Assembly: GCF_017357385.1 (NCBI RefSeq)
Contig: NZ_CP071632.1
Location: forward strand, 315,501-379,500
Direction: 5' to 3'
Length of the DNA stretch: 64,000 bases
Source of the DNA: Rhizobium sp. NZLR1
GTDB lineage: Bacteria; Pseudomonadota; Alphaproteobacteria; Rhizobiales; Rhizobiaceae
Positions 42,700 through 54,346 of the stretch are shown in pieces. Position numbers and translations under genes: made by a program. Position 1 is the first letter of the stretch. Each line of letters opens with the position of its first letter. A model generated the notes under the pieces. That model was not told where the DNA came from. It made no database searches and saw only the letters and a list, made by a program, of their open reading frames with translations.

Positions 42700-43605
42700 A
42701 TGATCAGAATCGAAGGTATAGCGGCTTTTGTCGCCGTCACCGAGGCAGGCTCGGTCAGCGAGGCCGCCCGGCGGCTGCGGCTCTCCAAATCCGTCGTCAG
42801 CGAAAGGCTGGCCGAGCTGGAGAAGTCGCTCGGCGGCATGCTGCTGCACCGAACGACGCGCAAACTCACCTTGACCGAGGATGGTGCGGTCTTCCTGGAG
42901 CGGGCCGGTCGCATCGTCCGCGAGATCGAGGAGGCTGCCGCCGACATGGCCGAGCGGCGCGGAACCCTGTCGGGGCCGATCCGCATTGCTGCACCCGTCA
43001 CCTTCGGCCGCATGCATCTCGGCCCGGCGCTTTATCCCTTCCTCGCCGAACATCCGGAGATCGAACTGACGCTCGATATCGACGACCGGCGCGTCGATGC
43101 GTCCTCGGACGGCTACGACGCGGTCATCCGCAACGGCCCGATCGCCGATAGCCGGCTGGTCGCCTGGAAGCTCACCCGCAGCCGCCGCCTGCTCTGCGCT
43201 TCGCCGGATTATCTCGCGCGGGCGGGAATGCCGGCGTCGCTGGCGGATCTCAGCAGCCATCGCGGCATCTTCTACACCAATCGCGGCGTTGCCGACTGGC
43301 GCTTCCAGACGCCCGACGGTGCGATCGTCGTCCGCGCAAAACTGGCGCTCGGCATCAACAATGGCGACATGCTTCGTGACGCTGCGATTGCCGGTCTCGG
43401 CATCGCGCTGCTGCCTGCCTTCATTGCTGGCCCGGCGATCCGCGAGGGCCGGCTTGCCGAAATCGATGTCGGCCACAGGCCGGAGGCCGAATTCATCTAT
43501 ATGGCCCATCCAGAGGGCCGCAATCCCTCGGCCAAGCTCCGCGCCATTGCCGATCACTTGAAGAAGAGCTTCGGCGATCCACCCTATTGGGATCCGGCGG
43601 GTTAA
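42700..43605 (+). CDS. LysR-family transcriptional regulator
   Basis: The 301-residue product has an N-terminal helix-turn-helix (IAAFVAVTEAGSVSEAARRL, SKSVVSERLAELEKSLG) and a LysR effector domain of the CrgA/PA-type (GPIRIAAPVTFGRMHL, YDAVIRNGPIADSRLVAWKL, GLGIALLPAF). It is divergent from two SDR genes, the common arrangement in which the LysR protein activates or represses the dehydrogenases. Confidence 0.92.
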   Translation: MIRIEGIAAFVAVTEAGSVSEAARRLRLSKSVVSERLAELEKSLGGMLLHRTTRKLTLTEDGAVFLERAGRIVREIEEAAADMAERRGTLSGPIRIAAPVTFGRMHLGPALYPFLAEHPEIELTLDIDDRRVDASSDGYDAVIRNGPIADSRLVAWKLTRSRRLLCASPDYLARAGMPASLADLSSHRGIFYTNRGVADWRFQTPDGAIVVRAKLALGINNGDMLRDAAIAGLGIALLPAFIAGPAIREGRLAEIDVGHRPEAEFIYMAHPEGRNPSAKLRAIADHLKKSFGDPPYWDPAG

Positions 43606-45261
<1,656 letters not shown>

Positions 45262-45286: not shown

Positions 45287-46948
45287 TCAACCAAGCTGAA
45301 TATAGGGCACGTCCTTCTTCGCCACCTCGTCCAGCGCTTCCTCGTAACCGGCATCGGCATAACGCATGACGCCGAGGGCGGTGTCGTTGGTCAGCGCGTG
45401 GTCGAGCCGTTCGTCGGCGCCATCCGTGCCGTCGGCGATGACCGTGACGCCGCAGCTCGTCATGTAGCCGGCATAGCCGCCGCCGCCGGAATGGACGACG
45501 ACGAGGTCGGCCATCGAGGAGCAGAGCATCATCGCATCGATCAGCGGCCAGTCGGCGATCGCATCCGAGCCGTCCTTCATCCGTTCGGTCATGATATTCG
45601 GATGCGCCATGGCGCCGGCATCGAGATGGTCGCGGGAGAAGGCGACCGGGCCTTTGAGTTCGCCATTCGCAACCAGCGTATTGACGCGCCGGGCGAGTGC
45701 CGTGCGTTCGCCGTGGCCGAGCCAGGCAATGCGCGCCGGCAGCCCTTCGAATGGCACATGCTGGCGCGCCAGCCGGATCCAGTTGGTGATGATCTTGTTG
45801 TCGGGGAATAGTTCCAGCAGCAGGTCGTCGATGCGGGCGATATCGCTCTCCTCGCCCGACAGCGCCATCCAACGGAACGGCCCGATCGCCCGGGCAAACA
45901 GCGGCCTGAGATAGGCTTCGGTGAAGATCGGAATGTCGAAGGCATTGGTGACGCCGCCCTCTTTCGCCTGGGTGCGGATGAGGTTGCCATTATCGAAAAC
46001 TTCCGAGCCCTTCCTCTGGAATTCCAGCATCGCCGTCACATGGTCGACGATCGAGGCGCGGCTTGCCGCCATCAATTGCCCCTGGCCGTCGTCGCGCAGT
46101 CCCCTGACCTGCTCGAGGCTCATGCCCTTCGGCACATAGCCATAGACGAGGTCGTGTGCCGAGGTCTGGTCGGTGACGATGTCGGGCACAATGCCGCGCC
46201 GGGCAATCTCCGGATAGACCTCGGCCGCATTGCCGACGAGGCCGACGGAAAGAGCCCGCTTCTCCTTCACCGCCGCATTGATCATCTGAAGGGCGCTATC
46301 GAGATCGGGTGCGATTTCCTGGAGATAGCCGATCTGCTGGCGCTTGCGGGCCCGTTCCGGGTCGATATCGACACAGAGGATCGCCGCCCCTGCCATGCGA
46401 CCGGCGAGCGGCTGTGCCCCACCCATGCCGCCAAGGCCGGCCGTCAGCACGAAGCGGCCGAGGAGATCGCCGCCGAAGCGCCGCTCGGCAATGCGCATGA
46501 AGATCTCGTAGGTGCCCTGGATGACGCCCTGGCTGCCGATATATTGCCAGGCGCCGGCCGTCAGCCCGCCCCAGCAGATCAGCCCCTTGCGCTGCAGCTC
46601 GTAGAACACTTCGGCCTTAGCCCATTGCCCGACGATGTTGCAGTTCGCCATGATGACCAGCGGCGCTTTGGCGTGAGTTCGAACGAGCCCGATCGGCTTG
46701 CCGGACTGGATGAGCAGCGTCTGGTCCTCCTCCATCTCGGTCAGCGCCTTGACGATGCCCTTGTGCGCCGCCCAGTTGCGGGCCGCCTTGCCGAGCGCGG
46801 CATAGACGATCAGGTTTTCGGGATCCTCACCGACGGACAGCACGTTTTCGAGCAGCCGCAGCAGCGCTTCCTGCCGCCAGCCCTTGGCACGCAAGTCCGG
46901 CCCGCCGGGAATGGGAAATTTCGGATGACGTGGATTGGCCTTCGGCAT
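45287..46948 (-). CDS. Urocanase-family hydratase without the signature Cys; proposed thiourocanate hydratase
   Basis: The 553-residue protein has the urocanase fold landmarks: WQYIGSQGVIQGTYE, LTAGLGGMGGAQPL (NAD binding, about 169-181), DIVTDQTSAHD, GPFRWMALSGE and MKDGSDAIADWPL. The canonical signature F-Q-G-L-P-x-R-I-C-W, which carries the active-site Cys, reads FEGLPARIAWLG at 400-411, so Ala408 replaces Cys. The substrate-binding C-terminus also differs (HSGGGGYAGYM). It is the last gene of an operon with an MIO-less lyase, a DUF917 protein, a hydantoinase and a carbamoylase. I infer water addition to thiourocanate rather than urocanate. It is not ordinary HutU: no hutI, hutF or hutG is present. 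Confidence 0.8.
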   Translation of the reverse strand: MPKANPRHPKFPIPGGPDLRAKGWRQEALLRLLENVLSVGEDPENLIVYAALGKAARNWAAHKGIVKALTEMEEDQTLLIQSGKPIGLVRTHAKAPLVIMANCNIVGQWAKAEVFYELQRKGLICWGGLTAGAWQYIGSQGVIQGTYEIFMRIAERRFGGDLLGRFVLTAGLGGMGGAQPLAGRMAGAAILCVDIDPERARKRQQIGYLQEIAPDLDSALQMINAAVKEKRALSVGLVGNAAEVYPEIARRGIVPDIVTDQTSAHDLVYGYVPKGMSLEQVRGLRDDGQGQLMAASRASIVDHVTAMLEFQRKGSEVFDNGNLIRTQAKEGGVTNAFDIPIFTEAYLRPLFARAIGPFRWMALSGEESDIARIDDLLLELFPDNKIITNWIRLARQHVPFEGLPARIAWLGHGERTALARRVNTLVANGELKGPVAFSRDHLDAGAMAHPNIMTERMKDGSDAIADWPLIDAMMLCSSMADLVVVHSGGGGYAGYMTSCGVTVIADGTDGADERLDHALTNDTALGVMRYADAGYEEALDEVAKKDVPYIQLG

Positions 46949-47002
46949 CGTGGATTCCTCGTTGGTTATCCTCCCTTCTTCCCAGGCGAGAAGGGAATGG
47001 CG

Positions 47003-47332
47003 TTATTTGCCCGGCAGCGATTCCACATAGGCGAGCGCCGCATCGAGCAAACGCCGTCTGAGCGCATCGTCGCCGTAGACCGCAGCCGTCGCCCGCACCC
47101 AGCCCTGCATCACACGCTCGCCCGAAAGCATCTGGATGACGCCCGGCAGCGCCAGCGCCCAGCCGTCATTGCCTCGGCCGAGACGGACCAGCATGCCGTC
47201 ACTGCGCGCGCAGCAGAGAAGATTGCCGTTCAGCAGGAAGGCCCGGCCGCCGAACATCGATTTTTCGCTGAAGCCAGGCCGATCGCCGAGTTCCTCGCGC
47301 AGCAATTCTTCCAAGCCGGGATCGCGCGTCAT
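47003..47332 (-). CDS. TfoX N-terminal domain protein
   Basis: The 109-residue protein has the TfoX-N pattern: EKSMFGGRAFLLNGNLLCCARSDG-like core (about residues 23-46), LVRLGR and a C-terminal helical tail. Stand-alone TfoX-N proteins are common in alphaproteobacteria and their role is unknown; Sxy/TfoX itself is a competence co-regulator. It starts three bases after the DUF917 stop codon, so it is part of the catabolic operon. A regulatory or accessory role is possible but not shown. Confidence 0.85.
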   Translation of the reverse strand: MTRDPGLEELLREELGDRPGFSEKSMFGGRAFLLNGNLLCCARSDGMLVRLGRGNDGWALALPGVIQMLSGERVMQGWVRATAAVYGDDALRRRLLDAALAYVESLPGK

Positions 47333-47335
47333 GGT

Positions 47336-48433
47336 TCAGGCCTTCGTTTCCAGTGCATAACGGGCGATCTCGATCCCCATCGCCTTTTCGACGACGGGAT
47401 AGACTGTGGGATCGAGCACGCTTGCCGACAGCGGTATAAGTTCCTTTGGAACATGCAGGATGAAGACATGCATGCCCTCCTTGAGCTGGCCGACGCTGAG
47501 CGGTTCGCCCTCGGTTGACAGGGTAGTAATGACGGCGGGGAAGGTGGCAAGCCGCATGCCATCCGCATCGTCCACCGCCATATATTCATTCATCACGTAC
47601 AGCCTCACCGATTTTTCGCCCGGACCGACGGTGATCGTGCCGATGTCGAAGGCTTCCTTGGTGTAGACGACGTCCTTGCGGGTGATGATGCCCTCGGCGA
47701 GGATATGCCCGCCCGTCGTCTTGCAGATGGCGTCGATGACATCAGATCCGCCCTTCCTCTCCGCCGCAATGATCGCCTCGCCGAGCGCAAGCGCCATCGA
47801 GATGCCGCCGAGTGCGGCATGGCTGCGCACATAGGAGGCTCTCAGCGGATTGCGGCAGCTGGCGATGAAGCCGCCGGATTGATCGGCGGCGGCGCGCAGC
47901 ACCGGCGAGATCTTCGCGGTCGCGCCCTTGACCATTAGTTCGATATAGCGGTTCTCGGACCGATTGCCGCCGACGGCGGTCTGGATCATCGGCTCCGGTG
48001 AGCCAGCCATGCCGATCGAGCCCATGTCGCCTGTGGGGTGCGCACGGATATCGCCGACCGCGTCGACCACCTTGGTGCCGAGGATTGCCGACGGCAGCCA
48101 GCCGTTCAGCGTCGAGGATTTGCCGTTCTGGCCGATGATCAGCCCGGAGAGCCTTTCGCCCAGCGCCTCCTGCAGGAGCTGCACGGCCTTGACATAATCG
48201 ATGCCCTGCATCTCCCAGGGCGTGGTCGAGGCCGGCGCGCCAATCGCCGCCGCCGTCGCGATCCAGTCCTCGTCCTGCAACTCGTCGATCGAGACCAGCT
48301 CCGGCTTGCCGATAGTGACGGCCGCCAGTCCGAGCATCCGCCCGTGATCGGCCCAGCCGCCGCCGCCGGCGGCATAGACGGAGCCGCCCTTGACGGCCGC
48401 TTCCACGTCCTTCTCAACCAGTATGCGTCCCAT
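47336..48433 (-). CDS. DUF917 / S-methyl-thiohydantoin desulfurase family protein
   Basis: The 365-residue protein has the N-terminal DUF917 pattern (GSVYAAGGGGWADHGRML, VSIDELQDEDWIATAAAIGAP) and the C-terminal beta-rich domain (GTITVGPGEKSVRLYVMNEYMAV, LATFPAVITTL). From what I know, the Pfam family is now named after S-methyl-thiohydantoin desulfurase. I propose that it removes sulfur from the thiohydantoin intermediate, giving hydantoin-5-propionate. The ATG at 48431-48433 has AGGAG upstream and overlaps the carbamoylase gene by 20 bases. Confidence 0.85.
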   Translation of the reverse strand: MGRILVEKDVEAAVKGGSVYAAGGGGWADHGRMLGLAAVTIGKPELVSIDELQDEDWIATAAAIGAPASTTPWEMQGIDYVKAVQLLQEALGERLSGLIIGQNGKSSTLNGWLPSAILGTKVVDAVGDIRAHPTGDMGSIGMAGSPEPMIQTAVGGNRSENRYIELMVKGATAKISPVLRAAADQSGGFIASCRNPLRASYVRSHAALGGISMALALGEAIIAAERKGGSDVIDAICKTTGGHILAEGIITRKDVVYTKEAFDIGTITVGPGEKSVRLYVMNEYMAVDDADGMRLATFPAVITTLSTEGEPLSVGQLKEGMHVFILHVPKELIPLSASVLDPTVYPVVEKAMGIEIARYALETKA

Positions 48434-49694
48434 CCGGCTTCTCCTGGTTCGAATTTCTGTCCATCTCGCGCACCGCCTCGAACAGCACGGCGGCGCCGAG
48501 CGCGATGTCGTCATTGTCAGCCCATTCGTCGGGGCAATGGCTGCGGCCGTCCCGGCAGGGCACGAAGATCATCGCCGCTGGCGCCACCTTGGCGATCCAG
48601 GCCGTATCGTGCCCTGCGCCGGAGGCCATGCGGCGATGCTTGGCGCCGACGCGCTCGCAGGCGGCCTCCAGCGTCGACAGCAGCCCGGCATCACCCGGGG
48701 TCGGCAGATTGTCGGACACCCGGTTCGGCGCCTTGATCGTCACGCCATAGGCGTCCGCCAGCTTTTCGACATGGCCGTCGAGCCAGCGGCAGAAGGCCTC
48801 CATGTCGGCGCGGATCTCCGCGCGGCCATCGATCAGCAGCACCACCTTCGACGGCACGACATTGGCCGCATTCGGCTCGATCCGGAACTCGCCGACCGTC
48901 GCGGCGAAGTGCCCTGGTGTTTTGGCAAGCTCGGCGGCGGCGTTGCGGATGTCGAGCACCAGCTGCGAGGCCGCCGCCAGTGCATCCGCCCGCCGGTCCA
49001 TCGGCGTCGTGCCGGCATGGTCGGCCCGCCCCTCGACAGTGATCTCCAGGCGGGTGATGCCCGAGATCGCGGTGACGATGCCGATATCGGCTTTTTCGGC
49101 CTCGAGCACCGGCCCCTGTTCGATATGGAGTTCGAGAAAGCCTGCCAGATCGGGCCGCTTCTGCTGCGCCAGAACGTCTGGACTGCCGCCCACCTCAGCG
49201 ATTCCCTCGGCAAGCTCGCGTCCGTCGCTGATGCGCGAAAGCCAGGCTTCCGGCAATTGCCCGGTCATCCCCCGGCTGCCGATGCAGGATACGCCGAAGA
49301 TGCTCACCTCCTCGGCAAGGAAATCGACGATCTCCAGATCGTGGTCGAGCTCCAGGCCCTGATCGTGCAGTGCCCGCGCTATCTCCAGTGCCGCGATCAC
49401 CCCGGCAATGCCGTCGAAGCGGCCGCCATCCGGCACCGTGTCGGAATGCGAACCGACCATGATCGTGCCGAGCCAGGGTTTGCGGCCGGTGCGCCGGCCG
49501 ATCAGATTGCCGGCGGCATCGATCCGCGTTTCCAGTCTTGCCGCCTTCATCCGCGCTTCGATATAGGCCCGGCCTTCGAGAAAGAGCGGCGTGAAGGCCC
49601 GCCGCGTCCACGGATGCCCCGGCTCGGTGATTGCGGCCAGCGCCTCGATATCTCCAGCGATCCGGCCGGCATCGACGGGAAGATTACGGCTCAT
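48414..49694 (-). CDS. Zn-dependent hydantoinase/carbamoylase-family amidase (N-carbamoyl-L-amino-acid hydrolase type)
   Basis: The 426-residue M20-type enzyme has TMVGSHSDTVPDGGRFDG (metal His/Asp), VDFLAEEVSIFGVSCIGSRG (Glu pair), HIEQGPVLE and the dimerisation domain ADHAGTTPMDRRADALAA, closing with SGAGHDTAWIAK. These match N-carbamoyl-L-amino-acid hydrolases and ureidoglycolate/allantoate amidohydrolases. In this operon the likely substrate is N-carbamoyl-L-glutamate, giving glutamate, CO2 and ammonia. Its start overlaps the amidohydrolase stop (ATGA). Confidence 0.88.
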   Translation of the reverse strand: MSRNLPVDAGRIAGDIEALAAITEPGHPWTRRAFTPLFLEGRAYIEARMKAARLETRIDAAGNLIGRRTGRKPWLGTIMVGSHSDTVPDGGRFDGIAGVIAALEIARALHDQGLELDHDLEIVDFLAEEVSIFGVSCIGSRGMTGQLPEAWLSRISDGRELAEGIAEVGGSPDVLAQQKRPDLAGFLELHIEQGPVLEAEKADIGIVTAISGITRLEITVEGRADHAGTTPMDRRADALAAASQLVLDIRNAAAELAKTPGHFAATVGEFRIEPNAANVVPSKVVLLIDGRAEIRADMEAFCRWLDGHVEKLADAYGVTIKAPNRVSDNLPTPGDAGLLSTLEAACERVGAKHRRMASGAGHDTAWIAKVAPAAMIFVPCRDGRSHCPDEWADNDDIALGAAVLFEAVREMDRNSNQEKPDGTHTG

Positions 49695-51070
49695 GCACCG
49701 GCTCCCGCGATAACCTGGCGCGGCAGCGGCCGCACGAACCGTCCGGTGCGGGGCTCGGCGAGCACCTTCCCGCTCTCGGCGATCTTTTCGCCGCGCAGAT
49801 AGGTGGCCGCAACGGTCCAGGGCAGGCGGATCCCATTATAAGGGCTCCAGCCGACGACGTTGTTGCCGCTTGCCGCGGCGTCATAGACGCTCTCCCGCGG
49901 CTCCAGCACGACGATATCGGCATCTTTGCCGGGGGTCAGCGCGCCCTTGATATGGTCGAGCCGGAAATGCTTGGCCGGGTTTTCCGCCATCAGCTTGGCT
50001 GCCCAAGTGAGCGGAATGCCCCGTTCGACGGCGCCTTTGATGAAAAGCGGCACCATCACCTCGAGACCGGGAACACCGGAGGCATTGGCGAGCATGTCGG
50101 GATTGGTCTTGCGGTTCTCCGACCAGCTGACGTGATCGGTCGAAACCAGCCAGACATCGCCCTTCGCCACTTTCCGCCAGAGTTTTTCCACCTCGGCGCG
50201 CGGCCGTACCGGCGGATTGATCTTTGCCTTGCCGCCGAGGCGCTGCACGTCATTCTCTTCGTCGAGCGTCAGATAATGGATGCAGCATTCGACCGTCGCG
50301 GCAAAGCCGTCGCGGCGATAGGAACGCGCGATATCGTAGCCGCGCCCGAGCGAGCAGTGCACCACATGCGCCGGGCAGCCGGTCGCAGCCCCCGTCTCGA
50401 AGATCGTGTGCATCGCCAGGAGTTCGGTGATCGCCGGCCGCGACAGGCCGTGCGCCCGCCAGTCGGTGATGCCGCTCGCCTTCACCTGCTCCATGTAGGT
50501 GCGCACCGCCTCGTCGTCCTCATTGTGCACGCCAGCCGTCAGCCCCGTCGGCGCGATTGCCGCAAAGCAGGCGTCGAGCAGAGCCGGCGGAATGCGCGGA
50601 AAACGCTTGGGGTCTGTGCCGAAGGTCGAGAATTTGAACGCCGCAACGCCTGCTTCGACCATCTCGGCAATCCGCGCGGCGCCTTCTTGCGGATCGACCG
50701 TGCCGTAAAGCGCGAAGTCGACGCGCGCCTGCGGGCTGGCATGGTCGATCTTCCGCTTCACCGCCGCGGCCGAGCAGACGAGATCGCCCTCGTCATAGGG
50801 CATGTCGACAATGACAGTCACGCCGCCGGCGGCTGCCGAGCGCGTCGACCAGATGAAATCCTCCTGGTCTTTCTGGGACAGCGAATGGACCTGCGCGTCG
50901 ATCGCGCCGGGCAGGATCAGCGCTTTGCCGAGCAGATGCCGCTCGCGCGCCGCAGGCGGCACGCCGAGGCCGACCTCGGCAATGCGGCCGTCACGCACGG
51001 CGACATAACCCGCTTCGACAATGCGGTCCGGCAGCACCAGCGTGCCCTGCAGAACGAGATCGAAGTCCAT
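49691..51070 (-). CDS. Hydantoinase / dihydroorotase-like amidohydrolase
   Basis: The 459-residue TIM-barrel amidohydrolase keeps the carbamylated-Lys segment GVAAFKFST, His in AGVHNEDDE, HVVHCSLGRGYD, and the catalytic Asp in LVSTDHVSW. The first metal motif usually reads HxH after GxID but is QVH here (GAIDAQVHS), a change also seen in some dihydroorotases. The composite domain ends with LTPGKDADIVVLEP. In context it probably opens hydantoin-5-propionate to N-carbamoylglutamate. It follows the lyase gene by 23 bp and overlaps the carbamoylase gene. Confidence 0.87.
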   Translation of the reverse strand: MDFDLVLQGTLVLPDRIVEAGYVAVRDGRIAEVGLGVPPAARERHLLGKALILPGAIDAQVHSLSQKDQEDFIWSTRSAAAGGVTVIVDMPYDEGDLVCSAAAVKRKIDHASPQARVDFALYGTVDPQEGAARIAEMVEAGVAAFKFSTFGTDPKRFPRIPPALLDACFAAIAPTGLTAGVHNEDDEAVRTYMEQVKASGITDWRAHGLSRPAITELLAMHTIFETGAATGCPAHVVHCSLGRGYDIARSYRRDGFAATVECCIHYLTLDEENDVQRLGGKAKINPPVRPRAEVEKLWRKVAKGDVWLVSTDHVSWSENRKTNPDMLANASGVPGLEVMVPLFIKGAVERGIPLTWAAKLMAENPAKHFRLDHIKGALTPGKDADIVVLEPRESVYDAAASGNNVVGWSPYNGIRLPWTVAATYLRGEKIAESGKVLAEPRTGRFVRPLPRQVIAGAGA

Positions 51071-51093
51071 GACGCTTCCTCCCTAAGCTGAGA

Positions 51094-52680
51094 TCAGAGT
51101 GCCGGTGCCTCGTGGCGGGCCAGCCGCTCCTCGATGCGCTCCAGCGAGCCGAGCGCGAAGAAATCGTCGAAGGATGCGATCGGAACTTGCTCGGTCAGCC
51201 TGGAGACGAAGTCGTCCGAGCCGAGTTCCTCTTCGATCGCCTCCACCTCGGCCGACAGCGGCCGGTCGACGGTATAGAAATCCGCATGTTTGCGCACCAC
51301 CTCGTAGAGCATGGCGGCGACGCCCTTCGGTTCGTCGCCGAGAATGTCGATCGCCTGGGCAGACAGCAGCGCCTCGAGGGCTGCGAGACGCTTCAGCGCC
51401 CGCATCTGCCGGTCGAAGCGCTCGATGACCAGCGGCAGGAAGGCTGCCTCATCCTCCAGTCCGGCCGCCACCACCAGCGACTGTGCCGATACGGGATTGG
51501 ACATCGACAGCACGCGCGAAAAAATCTCGCCGGCAAGCTTGATGATCGGCCCGAAACCGGTGGCGATCCGCCCCGGCGGCACGAGATTGACCGGCAGGTC
51601 GCGCCGCTGACCGTTGCCGAGAATGACACAGCGGTTGAAGGCATTGCGCGCCGCATGCGCCATGCAGAGTGCCGCCGATTCGAGCAGGATCGTCACATCG
51701 AGCGGCAGCGACCCGCCCGAGGTCATCACCCGGCCTTCGACGACGACCGGATTGTCGTCCGAGCGGCCGGTGGCGGCAAGGATCTTGTGGCCGGTCGACA
51801 GCAGGTTTTCGATCACCGCGCCGAACACCTGGGCGATCATCCGCAGGCTGAGCGGGTCCTGAACATGCGTTGCAACCGGCCAGTTCCAATCGTCGGAGGC
51901 GTTGCAGAGCCAGGCGCCGATCAGCGCCTCGCGCGCCGTGCCGACATGGCGGACCGCCTTCCAGGGATCGCGGGACGCGCCGAGCGCGCCGGCCGCCATC
52001 ATCGCCGTCGCCAGCAGGATGCGGATCGAGGCGGCGGCATTGCGCGTCGTTTCCGCCGCCGCTGCAAAGCTCACCGCATTGATGCTGAGCGAGGCGAGGC
52101 TGTCGCGCGGCGCCATCCGCACCGGCTCCAGCCCGGCTGCCCGGAAAGCCTCTGCCGCCTGCATCCGGTTGCCGCGATAGACCGCTTCGCCGACGCCGGT
52201 CAGCACCGCGCCGATCTGTCCCATCAACCCGATATCCGCGCAGCCGATCGAGCCGGTGCGGCGCACGACCGGGATGAGATCGGCCTCGAGCATCCTGATA
52301 TAGGCCTGGATCAGCTCCGGCGTGCAGCCGACCTGGCCGGTCAGCGCCGTATTGACGCGGATCGCCATGGCATTGCGCACGACATTGCAGGAAAAGGGTG
52401 TGCCGGTGCCGAAATGATGGGCGCGCACCAGGCCGAGGTTGAAGGTATCGAGTTCGTCGGCCGACCACTCCACATCCTTCATGGCGCCGACGCCGGTCGT
52501 CGCGCCATAAACGGGCATGCCGGAGGCGATGGCCTCCTCGACGACCTCACGGGCGATTGCGATGCGGGCCATGCCGGTCGCCGACGCCGAAATCGTCGCC
52601 TTGCCGGCACCGATCGTCACCATCTCGGCAAAACCGAGCGGCCGTCCGGAAAGTTTGATGCCAGGGCGTTCGTGCTGCAT
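51094..52680 (-). CDS. Aromatic-amino-acid-lyase (HAL/PAL) homologue lacking the MIO triad; proposed ergothionase
   Basis: The 528-residue protein has the lyase fold: catalytic Tyr58 in PVYGATTGVG, FNLGLVRAHHFGTG, and the later QDPLSLRMIAQVFGAV and DDNPVV blocks. The MIO-forming motif GSVGASGDLAPLAH reads GSIGCADIGLMGQ (143-155), so the Ala-Ser-Gly that cyclises to MIO is absent. Ordinary histidine or phenylalanine deamination is therefore unlikely. As I recall, ergothionase, which expels trimethylamine from ergothioneine, belongs to this fold and works without MIO. First gene of the operon; AGGAG precedes the ATG. Confidence 0.82.
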   Translation of the reverse strand: MQHERPGIKLSGRPLGFAEMVTIGAGKATISASATGMARIAIAREVVEEAIASGMPVYGATTGVGAMKDVEWSADELDTFNLGLVRAHHFGTGTPFSCNVVRNAMAIRVNTALTGQVGCTPELIQAYIRMLEADLIPVVRRTGSIGCADIGLMGQIGAVLTGVGEAVYRGNRMQAAEAFRAAGLEPVRMAPRDSLASLSINAVSFAAAAETTRNAAASIRILLATAMMAAGALGASRDPWKAVRHVGTAREALIGAWLCNASDDWNWPVATHVQDPLSLRMIAQVFGAVIENLLSTGHKILAATGRSDDNPVVVEGRVMTSGGSLPLDVTILLESAALCMAHAARNAFNRCVILGNGQRRDLPVNLVPPGRIATGFGPIIKLAGEIFSRVLSMSNPVSAQSLVVAAGLEDEAAFLPLVIERFDRQMRALKRLAALEALLSAQAIDILGDEPKGVAAMLYEVVRKHADFYTVDRPLSAEVEAIEEELGSDDFVSRLTEQVPIASFDDFFALGSLERIEERLARHEAPAL

Positions 52681-52771: not shown

Positions 52772-54346
52772 TCAGCTCACCATCCAGGCAATATAGAGAA
52801 GCGTCAATGCGATGACCCAAAGCGCGATCCTGGCCGAGCGGTTATGCCGCGCCTCGGCCTTGCCGATCGCCTCCGCCGTCTGCGCGTCGAAGCGCAGCCC
52901 ATGTTCGCTCATTTGCAGGAGCTGGTGGTGAAATTTTTCCGTTTTCGCTGCGATTTCGGGCACGGCTTCGGCGAGTTTGACCGCCGCCTTCAGTCCGTCC
53001 TTGATATCGGTGGCGATCCGCTTCGGGCCGAGATTGGTGCGGATCCAGTCGCCGACAACGGGCTCGGAGGCCTTCCACATGTTGAAGCGCGGGTTGAGCA
53101 TGCGCGACACGCCTTCGACCACGACCATGGTCTTCTGCAGCATCACCAGCTCCGGCCGTGTCGCCATGTCGAACAGTTCGGTCACTTCGAAAAGCAGCGT
53201 CAGCAGCTTGCCCATCGAGATCGTCTCGGCCGGCTGTCCGTGGATCGGCTCGCCGATTGCCCGGATCGCCTGGGCAAAACTCTCGACATTGTGGTGTCCG
53301 GGCACATAGCCCGCCTCGAAATGCACCTCGGCGACGCGGATATAATCGCGGGTGATGAAGCCGTAGAGGATTTCGGCGAGGAACCGCCGCTCCTTTTTAC
53401 CGAGGCGTCCGACGATGCCCATGTCGACGGCGACGATCATGCCGCCCGCATCGACGAACAGATTGCCCGGATGCATGTCGGCATGAAAGAAACCGTCGCG
53501 CAGCGTGTGGCGCAGGAACGACTGGATCAGCGTATCGGCGAGCAGGTTGAGATCGTGGCCGGCGGCCCGCAGGCCCTCGACATCGGACATGCGCGTGCCG
53601 TCGATCCATTCCATGGTGATGACGTCGCGTCCGGTGCGCTCCCAGTCGACCTTCGGGACGCGGAAGCCCGGGTCCTTTTCGGTATTCTCGGCGATCTCGG
53701 AAAGGGCGGCCGCTTCCAGGCGAAGATCCATCTCCACCTTCGTCGTCTGCTCCAGCGTCTTCGTCACCTCGACCGGCCGCAGCCGTCGGCTGGAGGCCAG
53801 GAAACGCTCCTGCATACGGGCGACGAGATACATCGCCTCGATGTCATGGGCAAAACGCTGGCGCACGCCCGGCCGCACGATCTTGACGGCGACCTTCTTG
53901 CGGCCCTCTGATGTCTCGACCTCGGCCGGATGCACCTGGGCGATCGAGGCAGCGGCGATCGGCTCGCCGAAGCTTGCATAGAGTTCGCCGATCGGCCGCC
54001 CGAGCGAGCCTTCGATATTGGCCTTGGCGGCAGCCGAGGGAAAGAAGGCCATCCGGTCTTGAAGCTGCGACAGGTCGTTGGCGAATTCGACGCCGACGAC
54101 ATCCGGCCGCGTCGCCAGGAACTGGCCGATCTTCACATAGGAGGGACCGAGCCGTTCGACGGCCTGTGCCAACCGGTCGCTGCGCTTCTGATGCCGCGCC
54201 TTGCTGCGCTCGAAAATCGTGACGAAGGATTTGGCGAGTGCGACCGGAGGCGGCAGGCCTTCGGACGGAAGAGCCGACACGACGCCCTCACGCACGAGCA
54301 CCCAGCCGACGCGCCAAAGGCGGAAATAGGCCCCGAATGTGCTCAT
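52772..54346 (-). CDS. ubiB: UbiB-family atypical kinase/ATPase for ubiquinone synthesis
   Basis: The 524-residue protein has UbiB landmarks: the inhibitory VKIGQFLATRPD (KxGQ motif), ASIAQVHPAEV, VAVDMGIVGRLGK and HADMHPGNLFVD, plus two C-terminal transmembrane helices (IALWVIALTLLYIAWM). UbiB is a membrane-attached ABC1/ADCK kinase-like protein needed for ubiquinone synthesis and is thought to help deliver lipid precursors. It is next to ubiE on the same strand, 48 bp apart, the common ubi pair. Confidence 0.95.
   Translation of the reverse strand: MSTFGAYFRLWRVGWVLVREGVVSALPSEGLPPPVALAKSFVTIFERSKARHQKRSDRLAQAVERLGPSYVKIGQFLATRPDVVGVEFANDLSQLQDRMAFFPSAAAKANIEGSLGRPIGELYASFGEPIAAASIAQVHPAEVETSEGRKKVAVKIVRPGVRQRFAHDIEAMYLVARMQERFLASSRRLRPVEVTKTLEQTTKVEMDLRLEAAALSEIAENTEKDPGFRVPKVDWERTGRDVITMEWIDGTRMSDVEGLRAAGHDLNLLADTLIQSFLRHTLRDGFFHADMHPGNLFVDAGGMIVAVDMGIVGRLGKKERRFLAEILYGFITRDYIRVAEVHFEAGYVPGHHNVESFAQAIRAIGEPIHGQPAETISMGKLLTLLFEVTELFDMATRPELVMLQKTMVVVEGVSRMLNPRFNMWKASEPVVGDWIRTNLGPKRIATDIKDGLKAAVKLAEAVPEIAAKTEKFHHQLLQMSEHGLRFDAQTAEAIGKAEARHNRSARIALWVIALTLLYIAWMVS

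Follow-up and report, generated by a model that had tools for sequence, protein, structure and literature searches.

What do rhizobia do with an operon that joins a relative of histidine ammonia-lyase (HAL, or HutH) to a urocanase homologue and two hydantoin-type hydrolases? We analysed a stretch of 64,000 nucleotides (hereafter the window) from the 6.86-Mb genome of Rhizobium sp. NZLR1 (contig NZ_CP071632.1, positions 315,501 to 379,500), in which six consecutive open reading frames on the minus strand occupy positions 45287-52680 in the order A-D-E-C-TfoX_N-B. The first encodes a lyase (A; 51094..52680; Pfam PF00221, 281 bits), followed by a hydantoinase (D; 49691..51070), a carbamoylase (E; 48414..49694), a DUF917 protein (C; 47336..48514), a TfoX_N-domain protein (47003..47332; Pfam PF04993, 35.1 bits against a cut-off of 30.1) and a urocanase homologue (B; 45287..46948). 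From A to B the genes are spaced by +23, -4, -101, +3 and +54 bp, and it is this spacing from which shared transcription of the six is inferred. An internal ATG at 48433, two residues ahead of where the NCBIfam match of the DUF917 protein begins, is probably that protein's true start and would make the third value -20. An earlier note, made from the letters and their reading frames, had described six packed minus-strand genes here as a candidate route from ergothioneine to glutamate; their positions and spacings agree with that description, and Pfam recovers every domain it had named.

NCBIfam equivalog models with curated cut-offs exist for the reactions of steps 2 to 5 of such a route, and the operon has a full-length match, far above chance, to each of them. 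B scores 1058 bits with the thiourocanate hydratase model NF058530 (step 2; cut-off 930), C 602 bits with the thiohydantoin desulfurase model NF058529 (step 3; cut-off 440), D 779 bits with NF058538, the model of the hydantoin-5-propionate amidohydrolase ErtD (step 4; cut-off 600), and E 636 bits with NF058540, that of the N-carbamyl-L-glutamate amidohydrolase ErtE (step 5; cut-off 520). The predicted assignment of steps 2 to 5 rests on this curated family membership. E also passes the generic Zn-dependent hydrolase model NF009531 (841, cut-off 486), and because this score exceeds its ErtE score the assignment of a precise substrate to E leans on the neighbouring genes. The Pfam domains of C are S-Me-THD_N and S-Me-THD_C, which we take to be the replacements of DUF917. 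Hydantoinases usually carry a metal-binding H-x-H. The ErtD of the window has Q-V-H instead, as do all of the 105 homologues, out of 116, in which the motif could be matched; the metal site of ErtD may differ from that of the usual hydantoinases.

The earlier note had allowed either ergothioneine or an S-substituted analogue as the starting compound, and families for the latter chemistry, in which an S-methylated (or otherwise S-substituted) ergothioneine would be degraded with release of methanethiol, do exist as NF058531 and NF058532. These families share superfamilies with the window's enzymes and have similar neighbours, and they match B and C, but more weakly: B reaches 740 bits against an S-methyl cut-off of 880 and C 282 against 450 (NF058532), whereas both pass the cut-offs of the thio-type models. 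A cluster on the pAt plasmid of Agrobacterium tumefaciens (L077) shows the reverse, scoring 976 and 555 on the S-methyl models, and since this control passes them the models do discriminate. The S-substituted analogue was rejected on these family scores with their positive control, and we consider it a very unlikely substrate; of the two compounds proposed, ergothioneine is favoured over the S-methyl form. The Agrobacterium cluster itself also contains a molybdopterin S/N-oxide reductase and a glutathione transferase, and is perhaps devoted to oxidised or conjugated forms.

A is a member of the HutH superfamily and B of the HutU superfamily, and the score of B with the generic hutU model (696) exceeds the cut-off of 375, as would be expected if the locus were a variant histidine-utilisation operon that includes hydantoin genes. 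B scores higher, however, with the thiourocanate hydratase model, and it is devoid of the signature Cys of urocanases, as had been noticed from the sequence: the motif PARICW of HutU reads PARIAW in B. Among 121 B homologues in the fetched loci, 116 have PARIAW and one has PARIGW, the motif being unmatched in four. The closest PDB sequence match of B is 7ned (816.6 bits, versus 615 for the next urocanase), which was deposited as a urocanate hydratase and which we take to be a thiourocanate hydratase. The match spans residues 15-551 and includes the motif HSGGGGYAGY; 7ned likewise is without the catalytic Cys, with Gly (PARIGW) where B has Ala. The lyase in turn has lost the triad that forms the 4-methylideneimidazol-5-one (MIO) cofactor, and the genome encodes its own HutH elsewhere (725 bits, over the cut-off), with a urocanase homologue 0.9 kb away that scores 683 bits with the thiourocanate model, under its cut-off of 930. 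Histidine utilisation was rejected on the family scores, the lost motifs and this separate HutH with its urocanase neighbour, and is in our view scarcely credible. The warning that the operon could easily be mis-annotated as histidine utilisation holds mainly for the lyase, as the other four pathway enzymes now have named families in NCBIfam. A second HutH-like gene (L002, C3:119551-120996) lies about 8 kb from the genomic HutH and encodes GSAGYL in place of GSVGASGDL, so that its product, like A, is devoid of the MIO triad.

What, then, is the lyase? A scores 208 bits with the HutH model TIGR01225, well under the cut-off of 539, and the profiles of phenylalanine and tyrosine ammonia-lyases (PAL and TAL) score it lower still. 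No ergothionase model appears among the NCBIfam matches of A, nor among those of two Treponema-type lyases (E<=1e-40). Its best PDB sequence match is 6s7j, the ergothionase of Treponema denticola, at 166.6 bits, compared with 136.7 for the best HAL. Where HutH has GSVGASGDL, A has GSIGCADI, one residue shorter and devoid of the MIO triad, which bears out the description of A as an MIO-less homologue. The sequence G-C-A/G-D occupies this site in 106 of 106 window-type lyases in the fetched loci, and the Cys, C147, is invariant (20/20 aligned rows), whereas the residue is Glu in 6s7j and in eight of nine Treponema-type lyases. With the exception of this Glu, the 6s7j residues K63, D64, S194, N196, D308 and K383 (numbering derived from the alignment) are matched in A. 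The AlphaFold2 model of A has a mean predicted local distance difference test (pLDDT) score of 87.6 and a predicted template modelling (pTM) score of 0.89, although residues 141-150 around the former MIO site reach only 57. A Foldseek search with this model places the ergothionase 6s7j first; 6s7j also has the top Z (38.1), in effect a tie with HAL (37.2). A is 100% identical to the lyase of Rhizobium phaseoli JHI366.

The lyase tree comprises 61 rows, among them 21 of the window clade, 32 HutH-like and five Treponema-type; PAL and TAL were left out. The window clade is separated by a single branch with support of 100/100 and lies outside the HutH-like rows, which themselves cohere at 100/98. 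It joins the Treponema-type rows at 94/88, rising to 98/92 once six rows, mostly long ones, are removed. The earlier note would have abandoned its proposal had the lyase branched inside the MIO-containing enzymes; as regards HutH, the best trees place it outside. Sixteen columns are common to the window and Treponema types and rare in HutH-like rows at the cut-offs of the analysis, and from these we chose the residues of the active region by judgement. D308 is present in 21/21 window-type and 5/5 Treponema-type rows and K381 in 21/21 and 4/4, and neither occurs in any HutH-like row. Similarly, N201 (21/21 and 5/5) and S199 (20/21 and 5/5) are each found in a single HutH-like row, K68 (21/21 and 4/5) in two, D69 (19/21 and 4/5) in four and L277 (21/21 and 4/5) in five. 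A resembles the T. denticola enzyme in fold, in having no MIO and in the K, D, S, N, L, D and K positions just given, and it differs in the Cys that replaces Glu and in forming a clade of its own.

Three observations limit the case for kinship with ergothionase. A and 6s7j are only about 26% identical; trees in which the window clade is forced together with HutH are not rejected by the approximately unbiased (AU) test, either with all rows (p-AU 0.06) or with the six rows removed (p-AU 0.16); and the same is true when the Treponema type is forced with HutH (p-AU 0.15, six rows removed). We therefore regard this kinship as favoured, not proven. Beside these groups, the lyases of a Rhizobium wenxiniae genome (L214) and of a Paracoccus aminophilus plasmid (L199) form a small third group (99/93); the same plasmid carries a long-branched Treponema-type row (L204).

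The distance of the window clade from the characterised ergothionase, the Cys at the former MIO site and the presence of two lyase lineages at one and the same place in clusters that are otherwise alike would also fit a scheme in which D, E, C and B use thiourocanate but A forms this compound from a different 2-thioimidazole amino acid, such as 2-thiohistidine or one of its mono- or dimethyl derivatives. A and the ergothionase lineage are, however, alike in having no MIO and in both possessing the lysines K68 and K381, and a lyase without MIO is expected to depend on a substrate whose leaving group is good, as trimethylamine is. We consider another amino acid substrate unlikely, and ergothioneine trimethylamine-lyase, an MIO-less member of the aromatic amino acid lyase fold, is the best reading of A.

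Is this arrangement of genes conserved? We collected the loci of the best 80 of 274 relatives in the genome collection, all of them in records of Rhizobium or other Rhizobiales. With genes counted as present at matches of at least 80 bits, the order A-D-E-C-B is kept in 76 of these 80 loci, 68 of which also contain the TfoX_N gene. Of the remaining four, one contig ends inside D and three loci (L156-L158) have the lyase standing alone. In all three of the latter genomes a hydratase over its cut-off lies elsewhere, beside C and E, with neither ErtD nor any lyase found in the 20-kb stretch around it; one of the three genomes also encodes another lyase, whose type is uncertain (L214). A second set of 30 loci, the window among them, is more varied: a window-type lyase directly precedes D in 17 and lies 3-4 kb from D in three, a Treponema-type lyase takes its place in two, and two have a window-type lyase with C and B, D and E not being in the stretch. 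One has an MIO-containing lyase, four have no lyase, and one is cut by a contig end, its genome encoding a window-type lyase on another contig. Among 12 plasmid loci, three are of the window type and two of the Treponema type (Burkholderia arboris and Paracoccus denitrificans), one has another lyase, and six have none in the stretch. In one locus (L066:6014-7897) an MIO-containing HutH-like lyase of 628 residues, with GSVGASGDL, stands directly before the desulfurase and the thiourocanate hydratase, and is perhaps a 2-thiohistidine ammonia-lyase.

Lyase and hydratase also occur in the same genomes. We counted the hydratase where it passed the NF058530 cut-off and the window-type lyase at E<=1e-90, in paired draws of equal size with the same handles among the matches; the window's genome is in both the family and the class draw, and the lyase genomes number 23 distinct ones. 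The rows of the lyase model come mostly from loci found through the hydratase, but all genomes of the two draws were scanned with this model. In the family draw of 199 genomes the hydratase is present in 26 and the window-type lyase in 20, all 20 within the 26; in the class draw of 385 genomes the numbers are five and four, and again the lyase set is nested in the hydratase set. The Fisher p values, which ignore kinship, are about 1.6e-22 (family) and 5.5e-9 (class). At the level of the phylum the hydratase was found in 6/398 genomes. Six genomes of the family draw have the hydratase and no window-type lyase. In two of them (G096 and G170) the cluster includes a Treponema-type lyase, and each of the other four (G049, G068, G152 and G156) has a single lyase match, with an identity of 27-28%; in the tree those of G049 and G152 place among HutH. 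In these four genomes (L056, L059, L060 and L061) the thiourocanate-to-glutamate cluster has no ergothionase-like lyase in the stretch, and likewise for three plasmid loci (L069, L070 and L075). The plasmids of L069 and L070 each have one HutH-like match and that of L075 has none, as judged from the plasmids and not their chromosomes. Bacteria with such lyase-less clusters may feed on thiourocanate that other organisms release.

Because steps 2 to 5 match equivalog families, the gene order is conserved, the lyase is nested with the hydratase, the lyase shares columns and a fold with ergothionase, and the genome has a separate HutH, we propose with considerable confidence that the operon encodes bacterial ergothioneine catabolism to glutamate, a chemistry predicted for this organism from its genes. 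First, the lyase would eliminate trimethylamine from ergothioneine to give thiourocanate, to which the hydratase would add water to form 2-thiohydantoin propionate. The desulfurase would then replace the sulfur, releasing sulfide, ErtD would open the hydantoin ring to N-carbamoyl-glutamate, and ErtE would remove the carbamoyl group. Overall, trimethylamine, sulfide, CO2, ammonia and glutamate would be produced, and nitrogen and carbon would be scavenged from a fungal metabolite. In this scheme the window lyase would be a divergent MIO-less branch filling the slot of the Treponema-type ergothionase. The earlier note's complete five-step route in one operon is supported for steps 2 to 5 by the equivalog cut-offs and favoured for step 1, its substrate being inferred.

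The published five-step bacterial pathway reportedly has the same products and, for steps 2 to 5, the enzyme set that the family models identify in the operon. The operon differs from it in its lyase, whose clade is not that of the Treponema-type enzyme, and in the extra TfoX_N gene. By its title, as listed in PMC9732360, that pathway was published in 2021 (Beliaeva, Leisinger and Seebeck, ACS Chem Biol), in keeping with the earlier note's remark that steps of bacterial ergothioneine breakdown have been described. PMC7653990 dates a description of ergothioneine breakdown to glutamate in Alcaligenes faecalis to 1963, and an ergothioneine sulfonate pathway also exists, judging by a title. The operon is therefore not new as a pathway, and any novelty lies in its lyase lineage, which is possibly new. 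Titles and abstract openings on Rhizobium with ergothioneine or ergothionase contained nothing on the operon, which may be in print elsewhere. More tentatively, A may represent a second, long-separated lineage of MIO-less lyases that takes the place of the Treponema-type ergothionase at the head of a four-enzyme module common to both, with a catalytic arrangement of its own around C147 and possibly a different 2-thioimidazole substrate.

If the ergothioneine assignment is true, many Rhizobium strains would be able to consume this fungal antioxidant, including R. johnstonii 3841, R. phaseoli and R. tropici. According to PMC10840373, black bean (Phaseolus vulgaris) took up more ergothioneine from soil through the action of mycorrhizal fungi; rhizobia could conceivably compete for, or feed on, soil ergothioneine. 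In a 2026 study (PMC13405746), for which a Burkholderia sequence served as BLAST query, ergothionase was judged to be rare, and the study itself cautioned about divergent homologues being missed. The window lyase clade widens what ergothionase counts in genomes should search for. A search for EgtD, of ergothioneine biosynthesis, in the window's genome gave no match at E<=0.001, a weak negative in that no control genome passed the cut-off.

The TfoX_N protein appears to be an accessory to the window-type operon. Its gene is present in 8/30 loci of the 30-locus set, and it was found in 77 loci in all, every one with a window-type lyase; phmmer (E<=1e-6) detected it in none of the fetched clusters that have a Treponema-type lyase or no lyase. 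The protein has no PADLOC match, no PDB sequence matches it at E<=1, and no relatives in viral contigs were confirmed. Two further TfoX_N genes lie elsewhere in the genome.

Finally, we consider the surroundings of the operon. Upstream, an ABC1-kinase (ubiB-like) gene (52772-54346) lies 91 bp away, from which transcription could conceivably read through into the operon; promoter and terminator predictions were no more numerous than in shuffled sequence, and no RNA families or tRNAs were found within the 64-kb window. On the far side, the plus strand carries a short unnamed reading frame, a major facilitator superfamily (MFS) transporter (43631..44878; Pfam MFS_1), convergent to the operon, and a LysR-type regulator (42700..43605; Pfam HTH_1 and LysR_substrate). 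An MFS relative is present in 73/80 stretches of the 80-locus set and in only four of the 30-locus set, all four from the window's genus. By their position, the MFS protein is a candidate transporter and the LysR-type protein a candidate regulator of the operon.

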